In this document: positions 1,966 to 19,713 of the stretch, one piece after another
Layout: every line of letters begins with the position of its first letter
How positions within the stretch are numbered: position 1 is the first letter of the stretch
Assembly: GCA_003075315.1 (NCBI GenBank)
Contig: QDFQ01000006.1
Span: 25,529 to 89,528 of the forward strand
Direction of reading: 5' to 3'
DNA from: Arthrobacter sp. TPD3018
GTDB taxonomy: Bacteria > Pseudomonadota > Alphaproteobacteria > Sphingomonadales > Sphingomonadaceae
DNA: 64,000 bases
Notes under the pieces: generated by a model
What the model saw: only the letters and a program-made list of their open reading frames with translations
Told to the model about the DNA's origin: nothing
Database searches by the model: none
Translations under genes and position numbers: made by a program

Positions 1966-2074
1966 GATCCGCGCCCATGTGAGAACGTCTAGCAGGCGCG
2001 GAGCGTGTATCAAAACACATTCTCGATTGCGGTTGGTCGTGCTAGGCACGTGAGATGAGTTTTGAGAAGGTGCC

Positions 2075-2626: not shown

Positions 2627-2664
2627 GAGGCGATCAGCGCGGAAGGGGTATAGCACCGACCGGA

Positions 2665-3072
2665 TCAGTCGGCGTCGAACGCGGTTAGAATGGGGCAGGG
2701 GCCTTCCGAGCCCGACCCACATTCATGAGCAAGCCGCTGGAGTGATGCGCGCACGCGCTTCAGCTCCTGGATCTTCGCATCCAGCGCCGCGATCCGCTCG
2801 TTGGCAAGCTGGCGTGCCCGAGCGCGGTCGTCGGTCGCGTCCAGCGCCACCAGTTCTCCGATCTGCTCCAACGTGAAGCCAGCGGCCTGCGCCGATCGGA
2901 TGAACCGGAGCCGGCGAACATCGTCTGCTGTGTAGCGGCGAATACCGCCATTCGAGCCCGATCCTTCAGGCCTCTCCGGCGTCTCGAGCAACCCTCTGCG
3001 CTGATAATAGCGGACCGTTTCTACACCGACGCCGCCCTCGCGCGCGAGCCCCGCAATTGTCACGTCGGCCAT
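2665..3072 (-). CDS. MerR-family metal-responsive regulator (CueR/MerR-like)
   Basis: 135 aa with an N-terminal winged helix (VETVRYYQRRGLL), a long dimerisation helix and a C-terminal metal loop HECGSGSEGPC. The C-x7-C spacing is that of CueR, and the MerR/ZntR cysteine near residue 80 is missing, which favours a monovalent ion such as Cu(I) or Ag(I). I chose the ATG at 3072 because it begins the HTH directly; a longer frame extends upstream across the promoter. It faces the glutaredoxin-MauE gene across a MerR-type promoter. That arrangement is the classic autoregulatory, DNA-distorting one. The metal assignment is inference. Confidence 0.9.
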   Translation of the reverse strand: MADVTIAGLAREGGVGVETVRYYQRRGLLETPERPEGSGSNGGIRRYTADDVRRLRFIRSAQAAGFTLEQIGELVALDATDDRARARQLANERIAALDAKIQELKRVRASLQRLAHECGSGSEGPCPILTAFDAD

Positions 3073-3075
3073 GCC

Positions 3076-3107
3076 TTGACTCCGTACCATAGTACGGCCC
3101 CTATATA
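3076..3107 (+). promoter_or_regulatory. MerR-type promoter/operator
   Basis: A TTGACT -35 box (3076-3081) and a TATA-like -10 (from 3101/3102) are separated by 19-20 bp. The overlong spacer contains the inverted repeat CCGTAC-CATA-GTACGG. This is the hallmark of promoters activated by MerR-family proteins. It drives the + strand gene at 3135 and overlaps the regulator's own 5' end. Confidence 0.85.
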
Positions 3108-3134
3108 GGTGTCGCGAGCATGGTGGAGAAGAAC

Positions 3135-3887
3135 ATGGCGACCGCGGCGCCCAAGAAGGCAACGATCTACCGCATGGTGATGCCGACGCACACCTGCCCC
3201 TACGGCTTGAAGGCAAAGGACCTGCTGCACCGACGCGGCTACGAGGTCGAGGACCATTGGCTGACGACGCGCGAGGAAACCGACGCATTCAAAGCCGAGC
3301 ACGGGGTCAAAACGACACCCCAGACCTTCATCGGTGGCGAGCGGGTAGGCGGCTACGACGATCTGCGCCGGTTTTTCGGCAAGACCGTGGCCGACCCCAA
3401 GGCGGTGACCTACCGGCCGGTCGCGGTTGTGTTCGCGATGACGGCATTAATGGCGCTGGCCGCCAGCTATGCCGTGCTCGGCACACCCTTCACGGTACGC
3501 GCCGGTGAGTGGTTCATCGCCTTCTCCATGTGTGTGCTGGCGCTGTTGAAGCTCCAGAACGTCGAGAAGTTCGCGACCATGTTCCTCAACTACGACTTGC
3601 TCGCGAAGCGCTGGGTGCCATACTCCTATATCTACCCCTACGCGGAAGGCGCGGCGGGCGTGCTGATGGCGGCCGGCGTGTTGACCTGGTTGTCCGTGCC
3701 GATCGCGCTGGTGATCGGGACGATCGGGGCGGTCTCGGTCATCAAGGCCGTGTATGTCGACAAGCGCGAGCTGAAATGCGCGTGCGTGGGCGGTGACAGC
3801 AATGTGCCGCTGGGCTTCCTGTCGCTCACCGAGAACGTGATGATGGTCGCCATGGCGATCTGGATGGTGCTGGGCGTCGCGCACTGA
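3135..3887 (+). CDS. Glutaredoxin-MauE/DoxX fusion membrane protein
   Basis: 250 aa. Residues 1-80 are a glutaredoxin-like fold with a CPYG redox motif (THTCPYGLKAKDLL) and the TPQTFIGG loop. Residues about 95-250 form four membrane segments of the MauE/DoxX type, with a Cys pair (KCAC) in the last loop. The ATG at 3135 is preferred over 3120 because GGAG lies 6 nt before it and 3120 is almost at the predicted transcription start. The likely role is thiol redox chemistry at the membrane in a metal-stress module controlled by the divergent MerR-type regulator. The exact substrate is unknown. Confidence 0.85.
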   Translation: MATAAPKKATIYRMVMPTHTCPYGLKAKDLLHRRGYEVEDHWLTTREETDAFKAEHGVKTTPQTFIGGERVGGYDDLRRFFGKTVADPKAVTYRPVAVVFAMTALMALAASYAVLGTPFTVRAGEWFIAFSMCVLALLKLQNVEKFATMFLNYDLLAKRWVPYSYIYPYAEGAAGVLMAAGVLTWLSVPIALVIGTIGAVSVIKAVYVDKRELKCACVGGDSNVPLGFLSLTENVMMVAMAIWMVLGVAH

Positions 3888-3924
3888 TCTGGTGCAGCGT
3901 CCCGGCGCAGCCTAGAAGGGCCGC

Positions 3925-4257
3925 ATGAGCTTCGGCCGCCTCGCCCGCACACTCGCGCTGCTCCTGCTGGGCGCGATGCTGTTCGTGCGGATGGGCCCAA
4001 TGTGCGAGGCCATCGCGCAGGCTGCTCCGCCTGCGGAGGCGCATGCCGGAATGGCCGATTGCGATCGAGCGCCGCCCACGCCCGTGAAAAAGGCCCCTTC
4101 GGTGGACTGCGTAGGAGCCTGCATCGCGACGGTCCTCGACGTTCACACGTCTCCCGCGCCGCAGCTCGCCGTGCGGACGAACCTGCCCGCACCCGAGCCT
4201 CATGCCCTTGTTGGTCGCTCGGGCGGCCCTGCGCCGCCACCTCCTCGAACCGCCTGA
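3925..4257 (+). CDS. Small exported Cys-containing protein (DUF2946/CopL-like)
   Basis: 110 aa with an N-terminal hydrophobic segment (LALLLLGAMLFV) that looks like a signal peptide or anchor. Further on are conserved-looking cysteines (MGPMC, MADCDRAP, VDCVGACIA) and a proline-rich tail. It follows the glutaredoxin-MauE gene by 37 bp in the same direction and probably shares its MerR-type promoter. The Cys pattern resembles the small DUF2946-type proteins found in copper clusters, but I cannot name a biochemical activity. Confidence 0.6.
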   Translation: MSFGRLARTLALLLLGAMLFVRMGPMCEAIAQAAPPAEAHAGMADCDRAPPTPVKKAPSVDCVGACIATVLDVHTSPAPQLAVRTNLPAPEPHALVGRSGGPAPPPPRTA

Positions 4258-4302
4258 TCGACGTGGATTCCAATCAATCAGTGCATTCGAGGAAAATTAC
4301 AC

Positions 4303-4524
4303 ATGAAGACCATCAAGTTCATCGGCGCGGCCATCGCGCTCGCTCTCGTTCCCGCCACGGCCTTTGCCGCCGCTGACTGCTGCGCCGGGAAGGAGTGCTG
4401 CAAGGATGGCGCCGACTGCTGCAAGGACAAGGACGGCGCGAAGAAGGATTGTTGCGCCGACATGAAGGACATGAAGCACGGCGAGCACGCCGGTCACGAC
4501 ATGTCGGGCATGCAGAAGAAGTAA
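4303..4524 (+). CDS. Exported Cys/His/Met-rich metal-binding peptide
   Basis: 73 aa. A clear signal peptide ends at about AFA-A (residue 23). The mature peptide of about 50 residues carries five CC pairs separated by Lys/Asp-rich spacers (DCCAGKECCKDGADCCKD and one more) and a His/Met tail (MKHGEHAGHDMSGM). This composition points to a soft-metal (Cu or Ag) chelator in the periplasm. It is followed after 7 nt by a strong terminator, so it closes the operon that begins at 3135. It is too short for confident family naming. Confidence 0.75.
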   Translation: MKTIKFIGAAIALALVPATAFAAADCCAGKECCKDGADCCKDKDGAKKDCCADMKDMKHGEHAGHDMSGMQKK

Positions 4525-4531
4525 GCGGAGA

Positions 4532-4556
4532 GGGAGGCGTTCGCGCCTCCCTTTTT
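4532..4556. terminator. Rho-independent terminator
   Basis: A perfect 8-bp stem GGGAGGCG/CGCCTCCC with a TTCG loop is followed by five T on the + strand. It sits between the convergent Cys-rich peptide gene and the DUF411 gene, whose stop codon touches the T tract. The stem may also terminate minus-strand transcripts. Confidence 0.9.
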
Positions 4557-4996
4557 CAATGGCGGGCGAACACTCTGCGGCCGCTCGGCCCAAACGCGAT
4601 CACGTCATAGGCCTGGGCCTTCATGCCCGGCATTTCCATGCCGGGTGAGCCCATCGGCATTCCGGCGACAGCGAGGCCGGTGACGCCCTTCGGATGCGTG
4701 GCAAGGGCGCGCTTCATGTCGGCGATCGGGACGTGGCCCTCGAAGGTCATACCGTCGATGATGGCGGTGTGACACGAGGCGAGGTCCTGAGGTACACCGC
4801 GTGCCTTCATGAACGCCGGCCGGTTCGCATCGTCGACGACGCGGACGGCGCGGCCGAACTGCGCCTTCACCTGCTGCGCCCATTTCTCGCAACAGGGGCA
4901 ACCCGGGTCGCGATGCATCAGGACGGGACCTGCAGCGAGAGCCCCCGCAGGGGTAGCGCACGCCAGCGCGGCGGCGAGAAGGCGAAAGCGATCCAT
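4556..4996 (-). CDS. DUF411 periplasmic metal-binding protein
   Basis: 146 aa with a signal peptide (to about residue 21, GALA-A). The DUF411 core contains DPGCPCCEKW, ASCHT and a Met-rich loop (GMPMGSPGMEMPGM). DUF411 proteins occur in copper/silver resistance clusters and are thought to carry or sequester metal in the periplasm. The gene lies downstream of a DUF305 gene on the same strand with a 59-bp gap and probably shares its transcript, because no copy of the local ECF promoter motif precedes it. The ATG at 4996 gives a proper signal peptide; the longer frame upstream does not. Confidence 0.88.
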   Translation of the reverse strand: MDRFRLLAAALACATPAGALAAGPVLMHRDPGCPCCEKWAQQVKAQFGRAVRVVDDANRPAFMKARGVPQDLASCHTAIIDGMTFEGHVPIADMKRALATHPKGVTGLAVAGMPMGSPGMEMPGMKAQAYDVIAFGPSGRRVFARH

Positions 4997-5055
4997 ATCT
5001 GAGTTCCCGGATGGCCATCCCCCCGCACGGTGACGGGGGGAGGGACGATAGTCGA

Positions 5056-5430
5056 TTACTGGGCGCTCTTGCCATGCGCCCGCAGCCAGGCGTTCAACTC
5101 GCCGATCTCGCGGGTCTGCTCTGCGATCGTCTTGGTGGCCATCTGGCGAACCTTGGGATCCTTGGTTTCGCGCAGCACGATACGCGACATGGCGATGCCG
5201 CCACGGTGGTGCTCGACCATCTTGCGGACCCACGTCTCGGTGGCATCCGCACCCATCGCCGACATCATCTTCTGATGCATGTCCATCTCGGCCTGCGGGT
5301 ACGGGTTCGCCGGCGTCGGCCGCATCATCTGCCCATGGTTCATGCCGGAATGGTCCATGCCCTGCATCTGGGCGACCGCGGGGACCGCGCCGAGGGCGGC
5401 CGCGACGGCCAAAATCATCATCTTCTTCAT
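5056..5430 (-). CDS. DUF305 exported protein (first copy)
   Basis: 124 aa. It has a signal peptide (cleavage near AVA-Q, residue 20), a short Met/His-rich stretch (MQGMDHSGMNHGQMM) and a DUF305 ferritin-like helical domain with VEHHRGGIAMS. DUF305 members (CopM group) bind copper in the periplasm. Transcription probably starts at the ECF-type promoter at 5466-5494, which carries a good match to the motif shared across this island. GGAG precedes the ATG at normal distance. It heads a likely two-gene unit with the DUF411 gene. Confidence 0.88.
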   Translation of the reverse strand: MKKMMILAVAAALGAVPAVAQMQGMDHSGMNHGQMMRPTPANPYPQAEMDMHQKMMSAMGADATETWVRKMVEHHRGGIAMSRIVLRETKDPKVRQMATKTIAEQTREIGELNAWLRAHGKSAQ

Positions 5431-5465
5431 CGTGTCGCTCCTGCGTCAAAGCCCCCGCTCAACAG

Positions 5466-5494
5466 GGATACGGGCTTCAAACGATTAGCCCTCA
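5466..5494 (-). promoter_or_regulatory. ECF-sigma-type promoter before DUF305
   Basis: Read on the minus strand: TGAGGGCT (5494-5487), exactly 14 nt, then CGTATCC (5472-5466). This matches the motif seen before copA, copC, the Csp gene and the cnrYX-sigma-like operon. The CGTA end lies about 36 nt before the DUF305 ATG. Confidence 0.75.
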
Positions 5495-5505
5495 AGCGAT
5501 GTTGC

Positions 5506-6105
5506 TCAGCGGATCGGCTGAAGCGTATTGATGCCGACGCTCTCGTCGGTTTCGGGGGGTGGGGGAGGCACCTGCTTGTCGCGATAGGAGGGGAGGTCGG
5601 GCGCATTATCGGGCGTCGGGTGCGCCTCGAGCCGAGCGATGTAGCGCTTCATCTGCGCGATCTCGCGGACCTGGGCGTCGATGATCCCGTCTGCGAGCTT
5701 GCGCACCTCGGGGTCTTTGATGTGCGCTCGCTCGCTGGTCATGATCGCGATCGAGTGATGCGGGATCATGGCCTTCATATACGCGACGTCGCCGACCGTC
5801 TCCTGGCTGCGGACAAGCCACAAGGCACCGGCGAACACCACGATCGAGGCCGCCACGATGCCGAGATTGGCCTTCCGGTTGGGGTACATGCTCCACATGA
5901 AGCCGATCATGATGAGCGCCATCACGGCGCCCATAACGATCGCCATCCATGTCCTGGTCTGGCTGTATTCGACGTGGCTCAGCGCGTAAGTGTTGAGATA
6001 CATGAGGCCGAACATCACGACCGTCGACGTCACAATCATCGCGGCGAAGCGCCCGTAGCTCATCCCCATAGCGCCGCCCTGTTTGGAATTGGGGTCGTGG
6101 TCCAT
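5506..6105 (-). CDS. Membrane-anchored DUF305 protein
   Basis: 199 aa. The N-terminal half has three hydrophobic segments (about 17-37, 46-68, 78-97). The C-terminal DUF305 domain has IPHHSIAIMTSERA and a proline-rich tail (PPPPP). This is the membrane-tethered form of DUF305 rather than the exported one. The ATG at 6105 is preceded by AGGAGAGCG, a good ribosome binding site. A weaker match to the island's ECF promoter lies at 6139-6167. It probably binds or relays copper on the outer face of the inner membrane; that role is inferred from family and context. Confidence 0.85.
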   Translation of the reverse strand: MDHDPNSKQGGAMGMSYGRFAAMIVTSTVVMFGLMYLNTYALSHVEYSQTRTWMAIVMGAVMALIMIGFMWSMYPNRKANLGIVAASIVVFAGALWLVRSQETVGDVAYMKAMIPHHSIAIMTSERAHIKDPEVRKLADGIIDAQVREIAQMKRYIARLEAHPTPDNAPDLPSYRDKQVPPPPPETDESVGINTLQPIR

Positions 6106-6138
6106 GTCGCGCTCTCCTGTTCGGCCCCACCCACTGAA

Positions 6139-6167
6139 GGATACGCGGCTCTCTAGCGGACCCCTTG
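6139..6167 (-). promoter_or_regulatory. Weak ECF-type promoter before membrane DUF305
   Basis: Minus-strand CAAGGGGT (6167-6160), 14 nt, then CGTATCC (6145-6139). The -10 and the spacing fit the island motif exactly, but the -35 has two departures from TGAGGG, so this is the weakest member of the set. It overlaps the 3' end of the PepSY gene. Confidence 0.5.
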
Positions 6168-6884
6168 AGCTTTTCTGCGGCGTCGACGGGGCCAGCGCAT
6201 GAAGAGCAGGATTGCCCCGGCGACGGCGAACACGAGTCCCCCCGCTGCGAAGGCGTTGAGCCACGGCGTGTTGAACCGTTCGTGCTCGGTCCAATCCATG
6301 ATGTGGAGTCCCCAGAAGAAGTCGTAGAGCCGCCACGTGCCGGTTCGCACCGATGTCAGCCGGCCAGTCTCCGCCGCGACGTAGATGCGGGTTCCGTCGG
6401 TGTCGGGGAAGGAAGCACGCCAGGCGGGGAGGGCACCGCGGTACTCGGTGCTGGGGCGCTCGATCCGCTCGACGACGGGCGCCGAACCAGTTTCGCCGCG
6501 ATACGCCTGCCTTGCGATCAGCGCTGCGGCCGGGCCGTCGACCGGGGGCAGCGGCTTTGCGGTGCGGGCGTCCAGCAAACGCACCTTGCCGTCGCCGAGC
6601 TGGGCTTCGACGATCGGCCGCCCCAGCAGCATCCGGTGCTGGAGCTGACGCACCGGCGCTCCGGCCGATGCGAGAAGGGCAGGGACGGGCGCGAAATCCT
6701 GAGTGGCGATCAGGGCCGGTTCGACGTTCCGGTCGATCCGGTGATCGCCATGCACGGTGTCGATCGGCAGCAGGCTCATGACGAGCCCGCTGGTGAACCA
6801 GACGATCGCCTGCGCCCCGATCAGGAGCGCAAGCCAGCGGTGAACCTTGCTTGCCCCGACATGGAGGCGGAGCCGCAGGCTCAG
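6153..6884 (-). CDS. PepSY-associated membrane protein, probable CTG start
   Basis: About 243 aa. The first membrane segment follows a KVHRWLALLIG motif typical of PepSY-TM proteins, then a periplasmic domain, then a last membrane segment near the C-terminus and an Arg/Lys-rich tail. The only in-frame ATG (6779) would remove the first membrane segment. The frame stays open up to copB, where a CTG at 6884-6882 overlaps the copB stop (CTGA), mirroring the GTGA overlap between copA and copB. I therefore place the start at the CTG. The product may support copper or iron reduction or assembly at the membrane; this is inferred. Confidence 0.7.
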   Translation of the reverse strand: MSLRLRLHVGASKVHRWLALLIGAQAIVWFTSGLVMSLLPIDTVHGDHRIDRNVEPALIATQDFAPVPALLASAGAPVRQLQHRMLLGRPIVEAQLGDGKVRLLDARTAKPLPPVDGPAAALIARQAYRGETGSAPVVERIERPSTEYRGALPAWRASFPDTDGTRIYVAAETGRLTSVRTGTWRLYDFFWGLHIMDWTEHERFNTPWLNAFAAGGLVFAVAGAILLFMRWPRRRRRKAQGVR

Positions 6885-8086
6885 AACCAGGTCCTCACGC
6901 CCGCGACGAAGCTGAAGCCGCCCGTATTGTCACCGCGTGCGCGGGTGAAGCGCGCGGTGTCGCCGAACTGCCGCTCCCACGACACGCCGATGTAGGGCGC
7001 GAACTCGCGCCGGCCCTCGTAGCGAAGCCGAAGCCCGGCCTCGAGGTCCGTGAGCCCGGAGCCGGTGCCGGTTTCGGGCACGTCCTGCGCGGAGAAATTG
7101 GCCTCCACCCTAGGCTGGAGCACGAACCAGTTGGTGATGCGCTGGTCGTAATAGCCCTCCGCACGGCCAAGCACGTCGCCCTTGTCGGAGAGGAACAATG
7201 CGCCCTCCACCTCGAACCAACCGGGGGCCAGCCCCTCGATCCCTACCGTCGCGTAGGTGCGCGAGGGGTTGGGCTTGAAGTCGTAGCGAACGCCCGCCTG
7301 AAGGTTCCAGTATGGATCGAGCGCGCGGCTGTAGAGCGCCTGCACCTCGGCCTGTTCGAGCGGCTTGCCGAACGTGCCTTCGCCCTCGCTCTTTAGCGTA
7401 AAGCGATTGATGTCGCCCCCGATCCAGGCCTCGCCATCCCAGCGATAGCCGTCGCCACCCTTGCGAGCCTGATATTCGGCGAGATTGAAGAGGATCTGAT
7501 AGACGGTCATTCCGCCATGCTCGCGGCGTAGATCGTTCTCGCGCGAGCTGGCCATGGCGTCCGCGCCCCAGAAACGATCGGCGAGGTGGTCCCCGGCCGG
7601 AGCGGGAGCGGGCTTGTTGCCGGGGGGAAGGTCGGTTCCGACCTTGGCAGCGGGCTGATCGCCGGGCATCGCCATGCCCGGCATCGTGCTCATGTCGTGG
7701 CCGGCATGCGGGTCCTGCCCCGCACCTGTCGATGCTGCCATGCCCGGCATAGCAGACATATCGTGACCGGCGTGCGGGTTCTGGGTGGGCGCAGCCTGCT
7801 GCTGACCGCTCATATCCATTCCCTGCATCCCGCTCATGTCATGCCCGGCATGAGGGTCGGCAGCCTGCGTCTTCGCCGGTTGCGCGCGCCGCGGCGCGGT
7901 GCGTCGGACGGGAGCCTTACGCTTAGTCGCGGACTTGGCCGCGGCTTTCGCCTTCGGCTTGGCGGCCGGCTTTGCCGGCATCGTCATGCCCGGCATGTTG
8001 TGCATGGAATGGTCCATGGTCTGCCCGAATGCGGGTGTCGCAAGGCCGAGCGGCGCCATACCGGCGAGGAGGAGCGACCGGATCAC
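6881..8086 (-). CDS. copB: Copper resistance outer-membrane protein CopB
   Basis: 401 aa. A signal peptide is followed by a low-complexity metal-binding region with three DPHAGHDMS/NPHAGHDMS-type repeats and GM-rich motifs (about residues 25-160). The C-terminal CopB beta-barrel ends in RTWF with a terminal Phe, as in outer-membrane porins. The GTG start at 8086 overlaps the copA stop (GTGA). CopB works with CopA to bind or store copper in the cell envelope. The family is clear. The Lys/Ala/Pro-rich linker after the signal peptide is longer than in many homologues. Confidence 0.92.
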   Translation of the reverse strand: MIRSLLLAGMAPLGLATPAFGQTMDHSMHNMPGMTMPAKPAAKPKAKAAAKSATKRKAPVRRTAPRRAQPAKTQAADPHAGHDMSGMQGMDMSGQQQAAPTQNPHAGHDMSAMPGMAASTGAGQDPHAGHDMSTMPGMAMPGDQPAAKVGTDLPPGNKPAPAPAGDHLADRFWGADAMASSRENDLRREHGGMTVYQILFNLAEYQARKGGDGYRWDGEAWIGGDINRFTLKSEGEGTFGKPLEQAEVQALYSRALDPYWNLQAGVRYDFKPNPSRTYATVGIEGLAPGWFEVEGALFLSDKGDVLGRAEGYYDQRITNWFVLQPRVEANFSAQDVPETGTGSGLTDLEAGLRLRYEGRREFAPYIGVSWERQFGDTARFTRARGDNTGGFSFVAGVRTWF

Positions 8087-10053
8087 GCCGCGGCCTCCCC
8101 GGCCTTGCGGACCTGGACAACGCGCATCATGCCCGCGTGCATGTGGTAGAGCATGTGGCAGTGGAAGGCCCAGTCGCCTTCCTCGCCAGTCACGTCCCAG
8201 CTCACCGTGCCTCCCGGCTGCACCAGCACCGTATGCTTTCGGGGGGCGTAGGCGCCCTTGCCGGTCACCAGGTCGAAGAAGTGGCCGTGGATGTGGATCG
8301 GATGTCCCATCATCGTGTCGTTGATGAGCGTCACCCGTACCCGCTCGCCGTGAAGCAGCGTGATCGGGTCGGGGTTCTCCGACAGCTTCTCGCCGTCGAA
8401 GCCCCACATATAGCGCTCCATGTTGCCGGTGAGGTGGAGCTTGATCTCCCGCTCCGGTGCGCGTGTGTCCGGGTTGCGGTCGAGCGCCATCAGGTCGCGA
8501 TAGGTGAGAACGCGATGCCCGACATTCTCCAGCCCCTGCCCGGGATCGCCGGTCCGATCGACCGGCATCGGCGAGATGGTCTGCACGCCCGGTCCCTTTT
8601 TAACCTCGGGGGCATTGCTGAAATCGCGCATGGAATGGCTCATGCCGCCCATGTCTATCCCGCCCATCTGATCGCCGTTCATCGCCGGCATCGTGCCGGA
8701 GCCATGGTCCATACCGGCCATGGCGCCGCCCTGAGCCTGGGCGTGGTCCATGCCTGCCATGCCGCCTGCCGCGGTGCCGGCCGCGAAGTGGTTCATTTGG
8801 GAATGATCCATACCCGGCATCGCGCCGGTGCCCGCGCCATGCCCCATCGCAGCATGGTCCATGCCGGACATCGAACCCGCAGCGCCGCCCATGGCGCCAT
8901 GATTCATGCCGCCGTGGTCCATCGTGCCATGATCCATGCCGCCAATGCCCATGTCCTTCATGGTCGCGAGCGGGCGCTTGCGGAGCGGGGGCACCTCGGC
9001 CGCCATGCCCTCGCGCGGAGCGAGCGTCGCGCGGGCCATGCCGGAGCGATCGATGCTCTCACCGACCAGCGTATAGGCGCGCAGGTCGGGCGGGGTGACG
9101 ATCGCGTCATAGGTCTCGGCCGGGCCGAACTGGAACTCGTCGATCTCGACCGGGCGCACGTTCAAGCCGTCGGCCGCGACGATCGTCATCGGCAGGCCCG
9201 GAATGCGGACGTTGAAGGTGGTCATCGACGAGGCGTTGATGAAGCGCAGCCGCACCCGCTCGCCGGGGCGGAATAGCGCGGTCCAATTGTCCTTGGGGCC
9301 GTAGCCGTTGACCAGGTAGGTGTAGACCGAGCCCGTGACGTCGGCGACGTCGGCGGGGTCCATCCGCATCTTGCCCCACTCCAACCGCTCTTTCAGCGAC
9401 TGATCCTTGCCGGCGAGAAGCCCGGCCAGGGTCTGGCGCTGGCGGTTGAAGTAGCCCGACTCCTTCTTCAACCGATCGAAGAGATAGTGCGGGTGGTGGA
9501 AGCTGTGGTCGGACAGCACGATCACGTGCTCCCGGTCGAACTTCACCGGATCGGGGTTCTTCGGGTCGATCAGGATCGGGCCGTAATGCCCCTCCTGCTC
9601 CTGAAGCCCCGAATGGCTATGGTACCAGTAGGTGCCGCTCTGGATGATCGGGAACTCGTAGGTGAACGTCGATCGCGCCGGAATACCCGGAAAGGCGATC
9701 CCCGGCACCCCGTCCATCTGAAACGGCAGCAGCAGCCCATGCCAGTGGATCGAGGTTTCCTCGTCGAGCTCGTTGACGACGTGGAGGCGGACGTTCTGTC
9801 CCTCGCGCAAGCGGATGAGAGGCGCGGGGACGGTGCCGTTGATGCCGATCGCGTGGCTCTGCCGCCCGTCGATCATCATCATCTGATGCGCGACCTTCAG
9901 CGTGATGTCCTCGCCCGACACCGTGGGCAACGGCTTGGCGATGCCGGCGGAGACGGGCTGTGCCCATGCCGGCATATAGGCCGACAAGGCGAGGCCGCCT
10001 CCTGCCAGACTGGCACCGCGCAGCACCTGGCGGCGGTCGAGAACACGCGACAT
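8083..10053 (-). CDS. copA: Multicopper oxidase CopA, copper resistance
   Basis: 656 aa. A twin-arginine signal (RRQVLRGASLAGG) precedes three cupredoxin domains. The copper ligands are visible as HWHG, WYHSH, HPIHIHGHFF and HCHMLYHMHAGM. Between domains 2 and 3 lies a long Met/His-rich insert (about residues 370-475) with many repeats of the type GMDHxxM or GMxH, a Cu(I)-binding feature of PcoA/CopA. It oxidises Cu(I) in the periplasm. Transcription probably starts at the ECF-type promoter at 10098-10123. It heads the copA-copB-PepSY operon. Confidence 0.95.
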   Translation of the reverse strand: MSRVLDRRQVLRGASLAGGGLALSAYMPAWAQPVSAGIAKPLPTVSGEDITLKVAHQMMMIDGRQSHAIGINGTVPAPLIRLREGQNVRLHVVNELDEETSIHWHGLLLPFQMDGVPGIAFPGIPARSTFTYEFPIIQSGTYWYHSHSGLQEQEGHYGPILIDPKNPDPVKFDREHVIVLSDHSFHHPHYLFDRLKKESGYFNRQRQTLAGLLAGKDQSLKERLEWGKMRMDPADVADVTGSVYTYLVNGYGPKDNWTALFRPGERVRLRFINASSMTTFNVRIPGLPMTIVAADGLNVRPVEIDEFQFGPAETYDAIVTPPDLRAYTLVGESIDRSGMARATLAPREGMAAEVPPLRKRPLATMKDMGIGGMDHGTMDHGGMNHGAMGGAAGSMSGMDHAAMGHGAGTGAMPGMDHSQMNHFAAGTAAGGMAGMDHAQAQGGAMAGMDHGSGTMPAMNGDQMGGIDMGGMSHSMRDFSNAPEVKKGPGVQTISPMPVDRTGDPGQGLENVGHRVLTYRDLMALDRNPDTRAPEREIKLHLTGNMERYMWGFDGEKLSENPDPITLLHGERVRVTLINDTMMGHPIHIHGHFFDLVTGKGAYAPRKHTVLVQPGGTVSWDVTGEEGDWAFHCHMLYHMHAGMMRVVQVRKAGEAAA

Positions 10054-10097
10054 GCAAGCTCCTAAGAATGGGGCCGTGAAAGGGCCGTCGCTTCTTC

Positions 10098-10123
10098 TAC
10101 GCGGCCGATCCGTCCAGCCCTCA
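10098..10123 (-). promoter_or_regulatory. ECF-type promoter of copA operon
   Basis: Minus-strand TGAGGGCT (10123-10116), 14 nt, CGTAGAAG (from 10101). The TGA of the -35 motif is the stop codon of the upstream ECF sigma gene. The CGTAGAAG form is shared with the copC promoter. Confidence 0.75.
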
Positions 10124-10690
10124 GCGGTTCCCTAGTTTTTCGAGCAGCCGTGCTCGCGCGCGATAGAGGCGGGTTTCGACCGCCTTCTGGCTGATCCCCA
10201 GCACCTCGGCCGTCTCGGCCTGGCTCAGGCCTTCGATCGTCCGAAGTACCAGAGGCTCCTTCAGGTTCGCGGGCAAGGTCGAGATGGCGCGGGTCACACG
10301 ATCGAGTTCCTGCCGATCGCCGGCTGCGTCGTCGATCGGCACCTGTTCGTCGACGATGCTCTGGACCTGTTCGTCGTTCGGCAGCGCGAACGACAGAAAC
10401 CGGCGCACGGCACGCTTACGCGCCCAATCGCGGCATTTGTTGACGGCGATGGTCGTGAGCCACGCCTGCATCGATCGGTTTGGGTCGTAGCGCGACAAGG
10501 CCTGATGCGCGGCCACAAACGCTTCCTGCGTCACGTCCAGCGCTTCGTCGGCATCGCCGAGGAAGGCGCGCGAAAGCCGGAACATCGGCTGCCGATAGCG
10601 TCGCACGATCTCGGCGAAAGCGGCTTGTCGGCCGGCGATGCTGAGCGTCGCCAGTTCGCCATCCGACAGCGCGGTCCAATCGAGGCTCAC
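10121..10690 (-). CDS. ECF RNA polymerase sigma factor (CnrH-like)
   Basis: 189 aa. Sigma region 2 (about 20-90) contains DVTQEAFVAAHQAL, and region 4 (about 125-185) contains the helix-turn-helix AETAEVLGISQKAVETRLYRAR. Both are typical of ECF sigma factors. It is the last gene of a three-gene unit ordered anti-sigma-like, periplasmic sensor, sigma, the same order as cnrYXH of Cupriavidus, and overlaps the sensor gene by 4 bp. It probably transcribes the local promoters of the TGAGGG-N16-CGTA type. The target assignment is inferred from promoter matches. Confidence 0.9.
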   Translation of the reverse strand: MSLDWTALSDGELATLSIAGRQAAFAEIVRRYRQPMFRLSRAFLGDADEALDVTQEAFVAAHQALSRYDPNRSMQAWLTTIAVNKCRDWARKRAVRRFLSFALPNDEQVQSIVDEQVPIDDAAGDRQELDRVTRAISTLPANLKEPLVLRTIEGLSQAETAEVLGISQKAVETRLYRARARLLEKLGNR

Positions 10691-11127
10691 CCCTGGCCGT
10701 CGGTGAGCGCCTTCACCACCGCGTCATCGAATTGAGAGGTCTGATCGGGCCGGAGAAGCTGACGCATGGCGAAGATATGCGCCAGCGTCGCCTTCTGCAG
10801 CTCGCCCATCGCGGCATGGCTCTGGTCGACCGCAGCGGCCACCCGCGGACCATTGCCGTGCTCGGCCTCGATCGCCTCGGCAAGGCGGGCATTGGCGGCA
10901 CGCATCTCCAGCTCGAGGGCGCGGCGTTGCACCGCGAACCGGTCTTCGAGCACCTTCAATCGGGCCTGCTGGTCGCCATCGAGCGCGAGCTTGTGGTGCA
11001 GCACCTCGTGGAGCGCCGCACCGGGTTGCTTGGGCTGCGGCAGCAGCGCGCGCCCGATAAAGACACCACCAATCGCTGCCAGGAAGGCGAGCAAGGCGCA
11101 CAGGACAACCCGCTTGGTCGAGGTCAT
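10687..11127 (-). CDS. CnrX-like periplasmic metal sensor
   Basis: 146 aa: short cytoplasmic tail, one membrane anchor (about 8-27) and a helical periplasmic domain of the CnrX/ZraP type. His40, His44, Glu61, His117 and Met121 match the five metal ligands of Cupriavidus CnrX (His42, His46, Glu63, His119, Met123) with a constant offset of two. The flanking genes are a CnrY-like gene upstream and the ECF sigma gene downstream, both with 4-bp overlaps. In CnrX-type systems metal binding relaxes the hold on the anti-sigma protein. The sensed metal here is not known; context suggests copper, the ligands suggest nickel or cobalt. Confidence 0.85.
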   Translation of the reverse strand: MTSTKRVVLCALLAFLAAIGGVFIGRALLPQPKQPGAALHEVLHHKLALDGDQQARLKVLEDRFAVQRRALELEMRAANARLAEAIEAEHGNGPRVAAAVDQSHAAMGELQKATLAHIFAMRQLLRPDQTSQFDDAVVKALTDGQG

Positions 11128-11396
11128 GGCTCGCCGATCAGCAACGCGGAAGGAGCGAGGGGGGAGGCTCCGCCGAGCGGCGCGAGCGAGACAGCAGGGC
11201 TTGCCGTCGCGGGCAGCTCGGCACCGACGATCCCGATACCGAGCGCCGCGGCGGTTATCACACCGATCCCGAGCCCGACCCCGCGCACGGCGGGGCGGCT
11301 GCCGATCCGTGCGAGGATCTGGTCCTCGATACCCTCCAACGCGGCCGGGGCGGGTGCGCCCGCTAGTCGCGCCAATGCTCTGTCTAGATCGTCCAT
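11124..11396 (-). CDS. CnrY-like anti-sigma membrane protein
   Basis: About 90 aa. A cytoplasmic N-terminal region (MDDLDRALARLAGAPAP) is followed by one membrane helix (about 42-62, GLGIGVITAAALGIGIVGA) and a short periplasmic tail. This single-span layout, together with its place before a CnrX-like sensor and an ECF sigma gene, supports a CnrY-type anti-sigma role. Sequence similarity alone would not prove it. The ATG at 11396 has GGAG 8 nt upstream; a GTG at 11405 is an alternative start. The ATGA overlap with the sensor gene suggests coupled translation. Confidence 0.7.
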   Translation of the reverse strand: MDDLDRALARLAGAPAPAALEGIEDQILARIGSRPAVRGVGLGIGVITAAALGIGIVGAELPATASPAVSLAPLGGASPLAPSALLIGEP

Positions 11397-11422
11397 GCTT
11401 TCCACTCCGCCCCTCTATCACC

Positions 11423-11451
11423 GGATACGCATCGCTGCCCATCATCCCTCA
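11423..11451 (-). promoter_or_regulatory. ECF-type promoter of the cnrYX-sigma-like operon
   Basis: Minus-strand TGAGGGAT (11451-11444), 14 nt, CGTATCC (11429-11423). This would give autoregulation of the sigma operon. Its -35 end lies only 9 bp from the -35 end of the divergent copC promoter. Confidence 0.75.
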
Positions 11452-11459
11452 ACAGCTGG

Positions 11460-11485
11460 TGAGGGGTCGGGCAGCGCGCCGCGTA
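11460..11485 (+). promoter_or_regulatory. ECF-type promoter of copCD
   Basis: TGAGGGGT (11460-11467), 14 nt, CGTA (11482-11485) followed by GAAGG. It is back to back with the cnrYX-sigma-like promoter, and the copC ATG is 32 nt downstream. Confidence 0.75.
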
Positions 11486-11516
11486 GAAGGGTGCACGAAC
11501 CTCGTCGGAGTACCTC

Positions 11517-11888
11517 ATGCGTAGTCTCGCCCTTCCTGCCGCCCTCGCTCTCCTGAGCCTCGCCAGTGCGGCGCAGGCTCACCCGAAGCTCGTTGTGGCC
11601 TCACCCGCGCCCAACGCGACCGTTGCCAAGCCCGCGCGTGTCGCTTTGCAGTTCAGCGAGAAGCTGATGCCGAAATTCTCTGGCGCGGACCTGATGATGA
11701 CGGGCCATGGCGGCGCCACGCACCCGCCGATGAAGGTTGCAGCCACCACCCAGGTTGCACCCGACGGTCGAACGCTGGTCGTGGTGCCCAAGTCGCCGCT
11801 CGGTGCGGGCCGCTACAGCGTCGCATGGCACGTCGTCTCGGCCGACACGCATCGGGTGTCCGGCAACTTCGCCTTCGCGGTGAAGTGA
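11517..11888 (+). CDS. copC: Periplasmic copper-binding protein CopC
   Basis: 123 aa. Signal peptide cleavage at AQA-H would leave His as the first mature residue, as in the Cu(II) site of CopC proteins that uses the N-terminal amine. The C-terminal HVVSADTHRVSG segment holds the Asp-x-His pair of the same site. The protein lacks the Met-rich Cu(I) loop of some homologues, so a Cu(II)-only type is likely. It delivers copper to, or works with, the CopD membrane protein encoded immediately after it. Confidence 0.93.
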   Translation: MRSLALPAALALLSLASAAQAHPKLVVASPAPNATVAKPARVALQFSEKLMPKFSGADLMMTGHGGATHPPMKVAATTQVAPDGRTLVVVPKSPLGAGRYSVAWHVVSADTHRVSGNFAFAVK

Positions 11889-11889
11889 G

Positions 11890-12819
11890 GTGGAAGCCGA
11901 CTGGCCGCTGATCGGGATCCGCTTCGCGCTTTATGCGACGTTGAGCGGGCTGTTCGGCCTGTCGGCGTTCAGCCTCTACGGGCTCAAGGCCGGGGAGCGC
12001 GCAGACGCACTCGCCTTGCGCCCCTGGCTGGTGGGGACCGGGCTGCTCGGCCTTCTGTTTTCCGGCATCGCGCTCGTCCTCCTCGCAGCGGCGATGGCAG
12101 GTGCGCCGGCGTGGCCGATCGATTGGGAAGCGATCGGGATGCTGCTTACCGGGTCCGCGACGGGCACGGCGTGGGAAGCGCGCATGGTCGCGCTGATTGT
12201 GGCCGTGATCGCGGCGCTGATCGCGGCAGGACGTACCGCGCCGCTCGGCCTGGTGGCGCTCGCGGCGGGCATTGCGCTCGCGACGCTCGCCTGGACAGGC
12301 CATGGCGCTATGGACGACGGTGCGACGGGCTGGGTCCATCTGTTAGCCGATATTCTGCACCTGTTGTCGGCCGGCGCCTGGGTCGGTGCATTGCTCGGCT
12401 TGACGCTGCTCGTGGTGCGGCCGGCAGTTCGCATCGACGTCGCGCATCTCAGACTAACCCACCGAGCGCTGCACAGCTTCGGTCTGGTCGGCACGATCGT
12501 GGTCGGCACCATCGTTGTGACGGGGCTGGTGAATGGCTGGCTGCTGGTCGGTGCCGGCAATCTGCCGAGACTTCCCACCACCCTCTACGGCCAGCTCCTC
12601 CTCGCCAAGCTGGCGCTGTTCGGCGCGATGCTGGGGCTGGCCTCCCTCAATCGCTTCCGGCTGACGCCGGCGTTCGAGCGCTCGCTTGCCGCGCGCGATC
12701 ATCGGGCTGCGCTCGGTGCTCTGCGGCGCAGCCTCGCGATCGAGGCGAGCTGTGCCGTCACGATCCTGGCGCTGGTTGCTTGGCTGGGGATGCTCGAGCC
12801 TCCCGCAACGGCGATGTAA
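11890..12819 (+). CDS. copD: Copper resistance membrane protein CopD
   Basis: 309 aa, about eight membrane segments, with the CopD domain in the C-terminal half (HLLADILHLLSAGAWVGALLG carries conserved His and Trp). It begins at a GTG one base after the copC stop, so the two genes are co-translated from the copC promoter. CopD is the inner-membrane partner of CopC and is linked to copper entry into the cytoplasm. A GC-rich stem (12823-12845) without a T run follows and may end transcription. Confidence 0.92.
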   Translation: MEADWPLIGIRFALYATLSGLFGLSAFSLYGLKAGERADALALRPWLVGTGLLGLLFSGIALVLLAAAMAGAPAWPIDWEAIGMLLTGSATGTAWEARMVALIVAVIAALIAAGRTAPLGLVALAAGIALATLAWTGHGAMDDGATGWVHLLADILHLLSAGAWVGALLGLTLLVVRPAVRIDVAHLRLTHRALHSFGLVGTIVVGTIVVTGLVNGWLLVGAGNLPRLPTTLYGQLLLAKLALFGAMLGLASLNRFRLTPAFERSLAARDHRAALGALRRSLAIEASCAVTILALVAWLGMLEPPATAM

Positions 12820-12855
12820 GGAGCGGGCGGCCGATCGTCGCCCGCCCATCGCCGA

Positions 12856-13191
12856 TCAGGCGGCCATCTTCTCGCATGCGTCGGCGCAGCGCTCGCACGC
12901 GGCGACACAGTCTTCCATGCCGTCGAGACCCCGGCAGCTCTCCGCGCAAGCTCGGCAGATCCGGGCGCAGATGCCGCAAACGAGCTTATGCTGGTCGGAC
13001 CCGCGCGCCATGAAATCGAGCGAGGTGGCGCAAATCTGCGCGCAATCGAGCATGATCTTGATGTGGTCGGGCGCGGCGTGGGCCCCGCCCACCTCGAGGC
13101 AGTGTTGGGTGGTCATCGACAGGCAGGTGACATGGCAGTGGTGGCAGGCGTCCATGCAAGCCTGCATCTCGGCGCTCATATGATCGTGCAT
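12856..13191 (-). CDS. Four-helix Cys-rich copper storage protein (Csp3-like, DUF326)
   Basis: 111 aa with more than a dozen Cys residues placed mostly as CxxxC on amphipathic helices (CMDACHHCHVTC, CGICARICRACAESC, CVAACERCADACEK), plus His and Met near the N-terminus. This is the copper storage protein fold. There is no signal peptide, so it should be the cytosolic Csp3 type that holds many Cu(I) ions. The ATG at 13191 has GGAG 7 nt upstream. Its promoter at 13224-13253 matches the island ECF motif, placing it in the same regulon as copABCD. Confidence 0.9.
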   Translation of the reverse strand: MHDHMSAEMQACMDACHHCHVTCLSMTTQHCLEVGGAHAAPDHIKIMLDCAQICATSLDFMARGSDQHKLVCGICARICRACAESCRGLDGMEDCVAACERCADACEKMAA

Positions 13192-13223
13192 CGGTGATCT
13201 CCGCGTGAGCCCCCGCTCAAGGG

Positions 13224-13253
13224 GGAATACGCGCCTCGTCGCCTCGGCCCTCA
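13224..13253 (-). promoter_or_regulatory. ECF-type promoter of the Csp-like gene
   Basis: Minus-strand TGAGGGCC (13253-13246), 14 nt, CGTATTCC (13231-13224). The leader downstream shares TTGAGCGGGGGCT with the DUF305 leader at 5445-5465. Confidence 0.75.
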
Positions 13254-13297
13254 CCGGGAGTCCGATCGATCGATGCGCCGAACGGCGCATGTAACCC

Positions 13298-13312
13298 GTT
13301 CACTTTTCGTTC
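13298..13312 (+). promoter_or_regulatory. LexA box (alphaproteobacterial type)
   Basis: GTTC, seven bases, GTTC. This is the direct-repeat SOS box of alphaproteobacteria and lies 34 bp before the umuD ATG. It predicts SOS induction of the umuDC unit. Confidence 0.8.
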
Positions 13313-13345
13313 CTTCACGCGTTACAAGGGCGCGAAGGGAATCAT

Positions 13346-13777
13346 ATGCTGCCACTGATGCAGCCGGTCCCGCTCGCCGACGTGCCGCAGGGAACCGTTC
13401 TCCGCATCGTCGGCGCAGCAGGAGCCGGCTTTCCGAGCCCCGCCCAGGATTGGGAAGATGACGGGATAAGCCTGATCGAACTGCTCCGGCTCGATCGGGC
13501 GGCCAGTTTCGTGTTCCGGATCAGCGGCAGCAGCATGATCGAGGCCGGCATCCACGACAACGACGTGGTGGTCGTCGACCGCGATACCCGCCCCGTCGAG
13601 GGCCATATCGTGATCGCGATCGTCGATGGTGGCTTTGTCTGCCGCCAGCTCGTCCGGCGCTCCGGGGCCATGTTCCTGGAGGCGCGCAATAGCCGGCAAT
13701 GCTATGAGGCGACCTCGGCCGAGGGTGTCGAAATCTGGGGTGTGGTGCGGACCGGCGTCCGCGACTACCGGCGCTAG
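13346..13777 (+). CDS. umuD: UmuD-like protein with Lys-to-Arg change at the catalytic position
   Basis: 143 aa, S24 peptidase fold. The cleavage region AGAGFPSPAQD aligns with the UmuD CGFPSPAAD site, and the serine nucleophile is present in SGSSM (Ser63). Where UmuD has VKKL with the general-base lysine, this protein reads VCRQL, placing Arg100 at that position. Self-cleavage to UmuD' may therefore be slow, pH-dependent or absent. The gene is preceded by a LexA box and followed by umuC after 3 bp, so it is a normal SOS translesion unit in layout. Confidence 0.85.
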   Translation: MLPLMQPVPLADVPQGTVLRIVGAAGAGFPSPAQDWEDDGISLIELLRLDRAASFVFRISGSSMIEAGIHDNDVVVVDRDTRPVEGHIVIAIVDGGFVCRQLVRRSGAMFLEARNSRQCYEATSAEGVEIWGVVRTGVRDYRR

Positions 13778-13780
13778 CCG

Positions 13781-15043
13781 GTGTCGTGGGCAATCGTCGA
13801 CGTCGCGAACTTCTACGTCAGCGCGGAGCGGCTGTTCGACCCCTCGCTGCGCGGCGTGCCGGTCATCGTGCTGTCCAACAACGACGGGTGCGCCGTTGCG
13901 CGGAGCGAGGAAGCCAAGGCGCTGCACGTCCGAATGGGCGAGCCCGTTTTCAAAATCCGGGATCGGATCAAGCGTCACGGCATCCAGCTGCGATCCAGCA
14001 ATTATGAGCTGTATGCAGACCTCAACCGCCGCTTCAACGCGGTCATCGCCGATCATTCCGACCTGGTGGAGATCTACTCGATCGACGAGAGCTTCTTCCG
14101 CTTGCCGGCACTGGCGAACGGGCTCGGCGATGTGGGAACGGCCCATCGGGTTCGCGAGGACATCGCCCGATCGGTCGGCCTGCCGACGAGGATCGGGCTC
14201 GGCCCGACCCGCACGCTGTCCAAGGTGGCAAACGCCCTCGCCAAGGCGACCGAGAAGGTCTGGGGCGGCGTGGTCGACTTGCACGACCTCGAACTGCGCC
14301 GGCGGCTGTTCGAGCATTGGCCGGTGGGTGAGGTGTGGGGGATCGGGAGCGCACTCGAAGCGCGGCTTCGCCCCCTCGGCGTGAAAACCACGGCGGACCT
14401 GGCGGCGCTGCCGCCCGCGGTCGCGCGCGATATCGGAACGGTGGTGCTCGAACGCCTCGTGCGCGAACTGGGCGGGATCGAATGCGACGACTTCAAGGTT
14501 GCCCCCGAACCGCTCAAGGCGACGGCGGTTACGCGGCAGTTCGGGGAGCCTGTAACCGCGCTGCCCGAACTGCGCGAAGCCGTGGCGCGACGCGCGGCGC
14601 GTGCGGCGGAGAAAATCCGTGCGCAAGGGTTGGCGGCGAGCCGCCTGATCGCCTTCGCGCATGGCTCCCGATACAAGCCGAACCCGCCCTCCGCGTCGCG
14701 ATCGGCACGCCTGTCGCCTCCGACCAACGACCCCCGTGTTATCGTCGGCATCGCGGGAAAGATGATGGAGACGATGTTCCAGCCCGGCGGGGTTTACACC
14801 AAGTGCGGCGTCCTGCTCGAAGACCTGTCCCCGGAAGGGCAGGGGCAAGCGGACCTGTTCGCGACGGCTGACCCCAAGGCACCCGGGCTTCTCGCCGCAA
14901 TGGACGGGTTGAACGCCCGTTACGGTCGCAACACAGTCATCCTTGCGGCGCAGGGCTGTGGGGGGCGATCGTTCGACACCAAGCGGTCGCAGAAGAGCCC
15001 GGCCTGGACGACGCGCATCGGGGAGATCCCGGTAGCTCGCTAG
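13781..15043 (+). CDS. umuC: Error-prone DNA polymerase V subunit UmuC
   Basis: 420 aa, the standard length. Y-family motifs are in order: the first catalytic Asp in [26 protein letters not shown], and the Asp-Glu pair of YSIDESF (near residue 100). Then come the helix-hairpin-helix, little-finger and C-terminal DUF4113-like regions. The GTG at 13781 follows the umuD stop by 3 bp. Together with UmuD it would form a mutagenic translesion polymerase under LexA control; such units are common on mobile elements. Confidence 0.95.
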
Positions 15044-15076
15044 TCGGCGCGGACCGGATCGGTATATCGGGACGCC

Positions 15077-15709
15077 ATGTGTAATCGCGCCCGCATGTCG
15101 AATGAGCCCGAAACCCTATGGGGATCGGCCGCGAAGCTGTTTAGCGAGCGGCCCCGCGACAACCGGTTTGACCCGCGCGAGCTGCGCCCCAAGAGCCGCA
15201 ACTATGTCATCCGCGAACAGGGCGGGGAGCGAGCCTGGGACGTGATGACCTGGGACGTGCTCGGCGGGAAGGCGGCGTGGCCGATGACCAACGTGCGCCA
15301 GCTCGGCCTCCCGCAATGGCGCAGGCTGGCAGAGAAGCCGGAGAACCGCTGTCTGGTGCCGTTGACCGAGTTCTGCGAGTTCACGCCCGACAAGCATGAT
15401 CTGGGTGACGGCAAACCACCGCTGAAGGGGGAGATGTGGTTCGGCGTGACCGATCAGCCTGTGTTCGCGGTCGCCGGTTTCTGGCAGCGTACCGAGGGCG
15501 GCAACGGCTTCACGATGGTGACGTGCAACCCCAATTCGCTGGTGGCGCCGATCCACCCCAAGGCGATGATCACGATCCTTGAGCCGAGCGACATCGATAC
15601 GTGGCTGCGCGGCTCCTATGACGAAATCGTTGGCCTGCAAAAACCCTACGATCCCGACCGGATGACGGTGCGCGGACCGGTGTTCCCGACCCGTCGTAAC
15701 GAACGCTAA
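15077..15709 (+). CDS. SRAP-family abasic-site shielding protein (YedK/HMCES-like)
   Basis: 210 aa. Cys2, exposed after removal of Met1, is the residue that forms a thiazolidine link with abasic sites in SRAP proteins. The other hallmarks, LTEFCEFT (Glu) and APIHPKAM (His), are present. It follows umuC by 33 bp in the same direction and probably belongs to the same SOS-responsive transcript. It would protect single-stranded abasic DNA during error-prone replication. Confidence 0.9.
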   Translation: MCNRARMSNEPETLWGSAAKLFSERPRDNRFDPRELRPKSRNYVIREQGGERAWDVMTWDVLGGKAAWPMTNVRQLGLPQWRRLAEKPENRCLVPLTEFCEFTPDKHDLGDGKPPLKGEMWFGVTDQPVFAVAGFWQRTEGGNGFTMVTCNPNSLVAPIHPKAMITILEPSDIDTWLRGSYDEIVGLQKPYDPDRMTVRGPVFPTRRNER

Positions 15710-16113: not shown

Positions 16114-16116
16114 CTC

Positions 16117-16147
16117 TTGACCCTGTACCAACTACAGGGTCCATATA
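16117..16147 (+). promoter_or_regulatory. MerR-type promoter/operator
   Basis: TTGACC (16117-16122), a 19-bp spacer, CATATA (16142-16147). The spacer holds the perfect dyad ACCCTGTA-N5-TACAGGGT (16120-16140). It drives the CDF gene, and probably the czc genes by read-through, under the divergent regulator. Confidence 0.9.
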
Positions 16148-16182
16148 GGTCGTCGCATCGAATACTCGAAGGGCGACGACGC

Positions 16183-17237: not shown

Positions 17238-17286
17238 CGCGCGGGCGCTCAGGCGCCCTGACCCCCGTTCGTCAGGAGCATTTGGA

Positions 17287-19709: not shown

Positions 19710-19713
19710 GCCC

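Follow-up and report, generated by a model that had tools for sequence, protein, structure and literature searches.

Known systems and the locus under study

The genes of copper resistance in proteobacteria are, according to PMC10141476, usually regulated by CueR, CusRS and CopRS. Another kind of metal-dependent control is known from the CnrYXH and NccYXH modules of Cupriavidus (nickel/cobalt), which are built around an extracytoplasmic function (ECF) sigma factor. In the discussion of PMC9045368 two promoters of plasmid pMOL28, cnrYp and cnrCp, with starts at 53286 and 54660, are attributed to CnrH, and earlier primer extension had placed the cnr starts 24 and 25 nt before the genes (PMC9045368). 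Here we describe a module of this type in a copper island of Arthrobacter sp. TPD3018, contained in a 64-kb stretch of its 4.01-Mb genome (contig C6:25529-89528, hereafter the window). A previous reading of the letters alone (the sequence-only reading) had proposed that an ECF sigma factor governs the copper genes of this island through a bipartite promoter common to them, and this proposal has been supported by the specificity of the motif, by its co-occurrence with the sigma gene and by its match to the CnrH promoters. Judged from these comparisons, it is very probable that the CnrYXH-type module of the island controls the copper genes through the shared promoter.

A CnrYXH-type module beside copper genes

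The operon starts with Y (11124..11396, minus strand), a putative membrane anti-sigma factor of 90 amino acids that is called CnrY-like from its position in the Y-X-H order. It is followed by X (10687..11127, minus strand), a CnrX-like periplasmic metal sensor with a Pfam Metal_resist match that finds the NccX/CnrX structures at E ~1e-21, and by the CnrH-like ECF sigma factor (10121..10690, minus strand; Pfam Sigma70_r2 and r4_2), the ends of the three genes overlapping in the order Y-X-sigma. Among 24 solved relatives of the sigma factor the best is CnrH (4cxf, E 4.9e-28) and the next SigW (6.8e-20); the protein has 189 amino acids, one cysteine and no extension. Over 85 distinct sensors aligned, X retains H40 (83/85), H44, E61 and H117 (85/85 each) and M121 (83/85), which we take to be the counterparts of the CnrX ligands H42, H46, E63, H119 and M123. 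Y is about as long as CnrY and occupies the corresponding place; a forced alignment of the two yields 23 identities in 80 aligned residues, and LLIG near the C-terminus is common to both. The name cnrYX-sigma given to the operon in the sequence-only reading was right, with the sigma factor nearest to CnrH, X nearest to NccX/CnrX and the five ligands kept. By sequence, the operon is a CnrY-CnrX-CnrH-type module, a copper-gene variant, common in Sphingomonadaceae, of the known nickel/cobalt module.

Relatives were collected by homology to the sigma factor: the 80 best of 423 loci and 29 from 298 family genomes, which together with the window and a second copper island of the same genome (contig C15) make 111 loci (1.70 Mb), 29 of them shorter than 5 kb. 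A homologue of X is present in 111/111 of these loci and one of Y in 104/111.

A probable shared promoter with fixed spacing

Three forms of the motif were followed, namely the exact motif (TGAGGG-N16-CGTA), a variant set (YRAGGG-N16-CGTA) and a tightened consensus (YRAGGGNTN12YGCGTA), and several counts were set against the reversed pattern as a control. The window holds five exact sites, each shortly before a gene and all at the places and with the N16 gap first reported. They are the predicted ECF promoters of DUF305a and, presumably, DUF411 (5469..5494, minus strand), of mcoA-copB (10098..10123, minus strand), where the TGA of the motif doubles as the stop codon of the sigma gene, of the Y-X-sigma operon itself (11426..11451, minus strand; autoregulation), of copCD, divergent from the sigma operon (11460..11485, plus strand), and of a Csp-like gene (13228..13253, minus strand). 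The weaker CAAGGG copy at 6167 turned out to be a member of the variant set at 6167-6142 on the minus strand (6142..6167), a candidate promoter of DUF305b, and the variant set over the whole window gives exactly six matches, the five exact ones and this site. The entire genome has 14 copies of the exact pattern, 5 in the window, 6 in contig C15 and 3 elsewhere, and 4 of the reversed control. A search that tolerates one mismatch does not rise above noise (95 places with the exact ones counted in, 91 in the control). The tightened consensus has 11 matches against 1 in the control, 4 in the window, 7 in C15 and none outside the two islands; it misses the window sites at 5494 and 13253 and is therefore specific rather than complete. 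The exact matches on C1, C14 and C24, which lie outside the islands, do not fit it and were discarded.

A search for the motif in related islands, which the sequence-only reading had suggested, found it kept, with 358 exact copies against 1 reversed across the 111 loci. Within 250 nt upstream of one of seven query genes lie 305 of these copies (Y 84, mcoA 73, copC 73, DUF305a 52, csp 17, a glutaredoxin gene 4 and the DUF411-region query 2), while 53 were not assigned. The distance from the end of CGTA to the start codon is 16-73 nt for Y, mcoA, copC, DUF305a and csp, as for core promoters. Since many loci are near-identical, upstream regions were filtered to less than 15% shared 12-mers, after adding 11 loci (122 in total), of which 4 came from a class search and 7 were chosen with motif counts in view (motif-rich L144-L147 and L151, motif-poor L152 and L153). 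When all hexamer-gap-tetramer patterns were enumerated in the resulting pool of 196 regions, which includes DUF411 as an added gene, TGAGGG-16-CGTA was the commonest, being present in 124 regions, with none at gaps 10-15 or 17-22. In the 177 regions of the five gene types (Y, copC, mcoA, DUF305a and csp), the variant set is found in 162 and never at N12-15 or N17-21: it precedes Y in 51/53 regions, mcoA in 47/51, copC in 32/35, csp in 17/19 and DUF305a in 15/19, and in regions that lack the exact form its place is mostly taken by CAAGGG, CGAGGG or TAAGGG. Before the inside-operon genes sigma, X, copD, copB and pepSY the motif is found in 0 of 168 non-redundant regions. Homologues of DUF305b carry the variant set upstream in 23 of 50 cases (21 CAAGGG, 2 CGAGGG; reversed control 0), or 3 of 11 after redundancy removal. 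DUF411 was rejected as a regular member of the regulon, with the motif in 3/19 non-redundant regions; in the window it sits behind DUF305a.

Apart from T at position 8 (0.76), C/T at position 21 (0.63/0.34) and G at position 22 (0.87), there is little constraint on the spacer in the 183 distinct exact sites. The bases after CGTA are also weakly constrained there, and the division into two -10 subtypes (CGTATCC/CGTAGAAG) tied to gene classes had to be abandoned because these bases differ within each class: the four that follow CGTA are TCAA in 12 and GAAG in 9 of 45 distinct mcoA sites, ATGA in 8, GAAT in 6 and GAAG in 3 of 43 copC sites, and TCCC in 7, TCAT in 7 and GAAG in 3 of 30 duf305a sites. 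In 7 of 8 relatives compared (the exception is L036), the flank upstream of the csp promoter bears no relation to that of the window and the motif is still N16; in L031 and L090 the spacer is unrelated too, with TGAGGG and CGTA still 16 apart. A second group of the family, at ~40% sigma identity, was represented by four loci from three genomes chosen for their motif counts, and 4/4 retain the Y-X-sigma-mcoA-copB layout and carry the motif upstream of mcoA and also, once as TAAGGG, upstream of the Y-X-sigma operon. Across the Alphaproteobacteria the module is rare outside the family: 5 of 385 class genomes match the sigma factor at 1e-24. Of these, three belong to other families, and their mcoA regions hold CGAGGG, AGAGGG and GGAGGG with CGTA at N16.

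The nearest characterized promoters carry the same boxes. On the pMOL28 sequence, cnrYp reads CAAGGG-N17-CGTA and cnrCp CGAGGG-N17-CGTA, and a second nickel-type module, that of Cupriavidus sp. USMAA2-4, has N17 twice, before Y and before TolC, so that N17 is found in 4/4 nickel-type promoters read. One N17 site was seen among the copper type, before Y in a Sphingorhabdus locus (L198). Given that the boxes match and the spacers are N16 versus N17, the motif can be read as a CnrH-family promoter with a spacer one base shorter. It had been predicted that transcription starts 6-9 nt after CGTA, and both published cnr starts, that of cnrY (tabled under RpoD) and that of cnrC, fall 9 nt after it.

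Co-occurrence of the motif with the sigma gene

Family genomes were taken as sigma-positive when they hold a sigma homologue at E <= 1e-25 (129 of 298) and as sigma-negative when they have none at that level (169). The mean number of exact motifs is 4.80 in the former and 0.98 in the latter (p 1.7e-38); the reversed control shows no such difference (1.94 against 1.70, p 0.16). At least three exact copies are found in 108/129 sigma-positive versus 16/169 sigma-negative genomes. From the sigma-negative group, 80 of the 169 genomes were taken for a check of the oxidase gene; 54 of them have a related multicopper oxidase (E <= 1e-80) and 30 loci were returned, 29 of which lack the variant set within 400 nt upstream of mcoA. 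In the thirtieth (G040:C31), the motif stands before a Y-like gene (1207-1467) that is directly followed by mcoA (1489-3246), and a divergent motif pair lies between copC and the Y-like gene. The Y-like protein and Y share 34% identity over 85 positions (E 6e-10 in a single comparison), and no X or sigma gene was found in this 4.2-kb locus, which apparently represents a decayed module.

Points against the regulon and alternative explanations

Several observations weigh against a sigma-driven regulon. Y has no significant database match, Pfam and NCBIfam included, and the variant set is absent from 15 of the 177 regions. Among the 129 sigma-positive genomes, ten hold no more than one exact copy. 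Three of the ten belong to the locus set: G279 and G168 have CGAGGG sites, and G076, with a locus of 14 kb, has no match to the variant set and shows only one-mismatch versions before copC and mcoA. Conversely, 16 sigma-negative genomes hold three or more copies. A hidden distant sigma factor was considered for the motif-rich G040, G153 and G201 and was not borne out, since around their best ECF matches (30-34% identity) tblastn found no relative of X, Y or the copper genes, no exact motif was present, and a further open reading frame beside the G040 sigma gene had no Pfam match; in G153 and G201 the exact copies lie dispersed, as they do in G040 save one divergent pair. Two of the 29 motif-free mcoA regions hold a one-mismatch match. 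Finally, Table 4 of PMC9045368 lists the cnrY start at 53286 under RpoD and 54660 as non-RpoD, and PMC11647585 likewise marks 53286 as RpoD, which leaves cnrCp as the clean case.

The alternative that survives best retains the sigma regulon and changes its metal: the signal would be nickel/cobalt or several divalent metals, and the copper genes would be induced as a side effect or under mixed metals. The conservation of the CnrX nickel site in the sensor, with all five ligands and the counterpart of M123 among them, stands against a simple copper signal, and so does the finding that copA, copB and copC of Sphingobium sp. ba1 went up with nickel; a role of these proteins in nickel adaptation is described by the authors as unreported (PMC5557971). 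This alternative is nevertheless unlikely, for the genes under control are copper genes, and the copper-island sensors carry H90 (80/85), H104 (85/85) and M107 (85/85) where the sensors CnrX, NccX and that of USMAA2-4 have P, E and A, a contrast that is only a lead because just these three nickel-type sequences were compared.

A much less probable explanation is that the motif is the operator of another DNA-binding regulator borne by the island, either an activator or a repressor. The back-to-back sites of copC and Y form a dyad-like CCCTCA-N8-TGAGGG, and MerR-family genes lie at 2665-3078 and 15706-16131. However, a dyad operator was rejected: the remaining four of the six window sites are single and the distance of the divergent pair varies among loci; the boxes match those of CnrH promoters and stand at the core-promoter-like distance from the start codon given above; and X is present in all 111 loci versus 36/111 for the MerR gene at 2665 (29 loci being shorter than 5 kb, and the second MerR gene not searched for). 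That the matches merely reflect chance or the shared descent of a recent island, as the ~86-99% DNA identity to the window block over long stretches in 11 of 15 loci compared might suggest, can practically be dismissed, because one spacing is kept after redundancy removal and at ~40% sigma identity over freely varying spacers, the csp motif persists beside an unrelated flank in seven relatives and an unrelated spacer in two, and every tightened match of the genome lies in its two islands.

Proposed mechanism and its meaning

In the proposed ECF sigma regulon, X, anchored in the membrane, would bind periplasmic metal, most likely copper, and the metal-bound sensor would cause the small membrane protein Y to release the sigma factor that it presumably sequesters. 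The free sigma factor would then guide RNA polymerase, through presumed contacts with the DNA, to the -35 element YRAGGGRT and the -10 element YGCGTA, with 16 bases between AGGG and CGTA, and transcription would start about 9 nt past CGTA. The starts expected in the window lie near 5460, 6133, 10089, 11417, 11494 and 13219, with leaders of 21-36 nt before the start codons. Six transcripts would be switched on, namely Y-X-sigma, copCD, mcoA-copB(-pepSY), DUF305b, DUF305a(-DUF411) and the Csp-like gene, the extents of which are putative. As the sigma operon is itself a target, the response should be amplified by positive feedback, and copper is favored as the signal because the controlled genes handle copper.

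A tentative scenario, which we find conceivable but would not yet prefer, is that sphingomonads recruited the nickel-type CnrYXH as a self-contained copper switch. H90, H104 and M107 might have shifted its specificity from nickel to copper and the shorter spacing might insulate it from the nickel type; module, promoter and interchangeable copper genes would travel together, and two copies in one cell would form a joint regulon. Many Sphingomonadaceae appear to run copper resistance by a dedicated ECF sigma factor whose promoter is specific enough to read the members of the regulon straight from the sequence, and the system may serve as an example of a metal sensor family switching from one metal to another. 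If the nickel-raised copper genes of Sphingobium sp. ba1 belong to such a module, it may help to explain them as well.

Copper genes and surroundings of the island

To the left of the sigma operon, the minus strand carries the DUF411 gene (4556..5002, start approximate; Pfam DUF411 E 1.3e-22) downstream of DUF305a (5056..5430), which encodes a CopM-like small protein (Pfam DUF305; NCBIfam CopM 70.9 bits, below the cut-off of 90), and DUF305b (5506..6105; Pfam DUF305), whose product is membrane-anchored. Then come a PepSY-TM membrane protein gene (6153..6878, start approximate; Pfam PepSY_TM 33.1 bits, cut-off 28.8), copB (6881..8086, in an open reading frame of 6881-8407; Pfam CopB E 6e-87) and mcoA (8083..10053), a copper-resistance multicopper oxidase of the CopA/PcoA type (NCBIfam TIGR01480 above cut-off). 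The PepSY-TM gene is presumably the last of the mcoA-copB transcript; a PepSY gene also follows copB in pSES220, and the motif precedes the PepSY gene in 0 of 12 non-redundant regions. On the plus strand lie copC (11517..11888), for a periplasmic copper-binding protein, and copD (11890..12819), for a membrane copper protein, which match NCBIfam copper_CopC and copper_CopD, respectively, above cut-off. Beyond copD, the minus strand carries a gene for a small Cys/His-rich protein (12856..13191, start taken at ATG 13191), which was recognized from its sequence, has no match in Pfam or NCBIfam and, as we presume, resembles Csp.

The copper block, ~1941-13258, looks mobile, as its left ends recur among relatives at 1941, 1954 or 2741 and its right ends at 13233 or 13257-13258, and a serine recombinase gene (2075-2626) lies near the recurring left ends. 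S. metalli (L036) shares 99.45% identity over 18.7 kb (1954-20690). The Y-X-sigma-oxidase arrangement is present on named plasmid records of three Sphingobium yanoikuyae strains, Sphingobium cloacae, Sphingorhabdus and Blastomonas, and the sigma factor (E <= 1e-25) on 70 plasmid records, 35 of them typed conjugative. The MerR-family gene at 2665-3078 (minus strand) is divergent from a glutaredoxin-family gene (3135-3887, plus strand), a pair like which adjoins the module in pSES220, and the TGAGGG motif stands before the glutaredoxin gene in four loci. The second MerR-family gene (15706-16131, minus strand; best NCBIfam match CueR with 131 bits, below the cut-off of 147.4) lies beside a CDF-type cation transporter gene (16117-16803) and is a possible further regulator of metal genes next to the island. 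A Fic-domain gene (Pfam PF02661; 22973-24265, minus strand) is found just past an RND efflux gene.

The second copper island of the genome

The island on contig C15 has similar neighbors and a sigma gene 74% identical to that of the window. Its exact sites precede DUF305, mcoA, Y-X-sigma and copC, and another lies ~90 nt 5' of the start of the gene for a P-type ATPase that contains heavy-metal-binding and YHS domains; a match inside the sigma gene (C15:16413-16438) was set aside as chance and recurs in loci of the same layout. Three of its matches to the tightened consensus are not exact TGAGGG: the first precedes the Csp homologue, the second a DUF4396 gene (Pfam), and the third points into the PepSY gene. 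The last (C15:11111-11136; L015 8111-8136, plus strand) belongs to the variant set, is divergent from the DUF305a promoter and points into the 3' end of PepSY on the antisense strand; exact motifs occupy a like place in L067 (16125, minus strand) and L082 (13150, minus strand). No gene for it was found at that site, and it possibly serves an antisense or small RNA. With the same promoter, the paralogous module of C15 is probably joined to that of the window in one regulon, to which it contributes the heavy-metal P-type ATPase and the DUF4396 protein, which would imply cross-talk between the islands.

Comparison with known systems

The sequence-only reading had called a copper island under its own ECF sigma factor unusual, and this stands for the literature searched but not for the family, in which 129/298 genomes have a homologue of the sigma factor. 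Among the literature matches listed, no CnrYXH-like copper regulon was found in sphingomonads, and the ECF reclassification may already list the group. CopRS/CusRS and CueR, being two-component or MerR-type regulators, are unlike the sigma factor of the window.

Two other ECF systems answer to copper. CorE of Myxococcus xanthus is alike in activating a multicopper oxidase gene, but it binds copper itself by means of a Cys-rich C-terminal extension and a CxC motif and works without an anti-sigma factor (PMC10141476). The window sigma has neither the extension nor CxC, and its 189 amino acids, single cysteine and adjacent Y and X depart from the features of the CorE type (ECF44/ECF238). SigAb-AabA-AabB of Acinetobacter is alike in its copper-answering ECF sigma factor and in an anti-sigma factor modelled like CnrY, and differs in that its direct regulon is small (sigAb, relA and sabS), its copper genes are affected indirectly and the sigma gene comes first in the operon (PMC12153292).

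The likeness to CnrYXH/NccYXH extends over the Y-X-sigma order with overlapping ends, the five sensor ligands, the YRAGGG and CGTA boxes, and the placing of one promoter before Y and another just past the sigma gene. The two types differ in spacing, N17 in CnrYXH and N16 in the window type (162/177 regions, none with N17 in that set), in the sensor, with H90, H104 and M107 against P, E and A in three nickel-type sensors, and in the sigma factor, which shares 68 of 186 aligned residues with nickel-type CnrH. They also differ in their targets, CnrYXH serving an RND nickel efflux pump, whereas the motif-bearing genes of the window are copC, mcoA, DUF305, the Csp-like gene and the module itself. 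A module of familiar type appears here in a different role, with copper genes instead of nickel/cobalt efflux.

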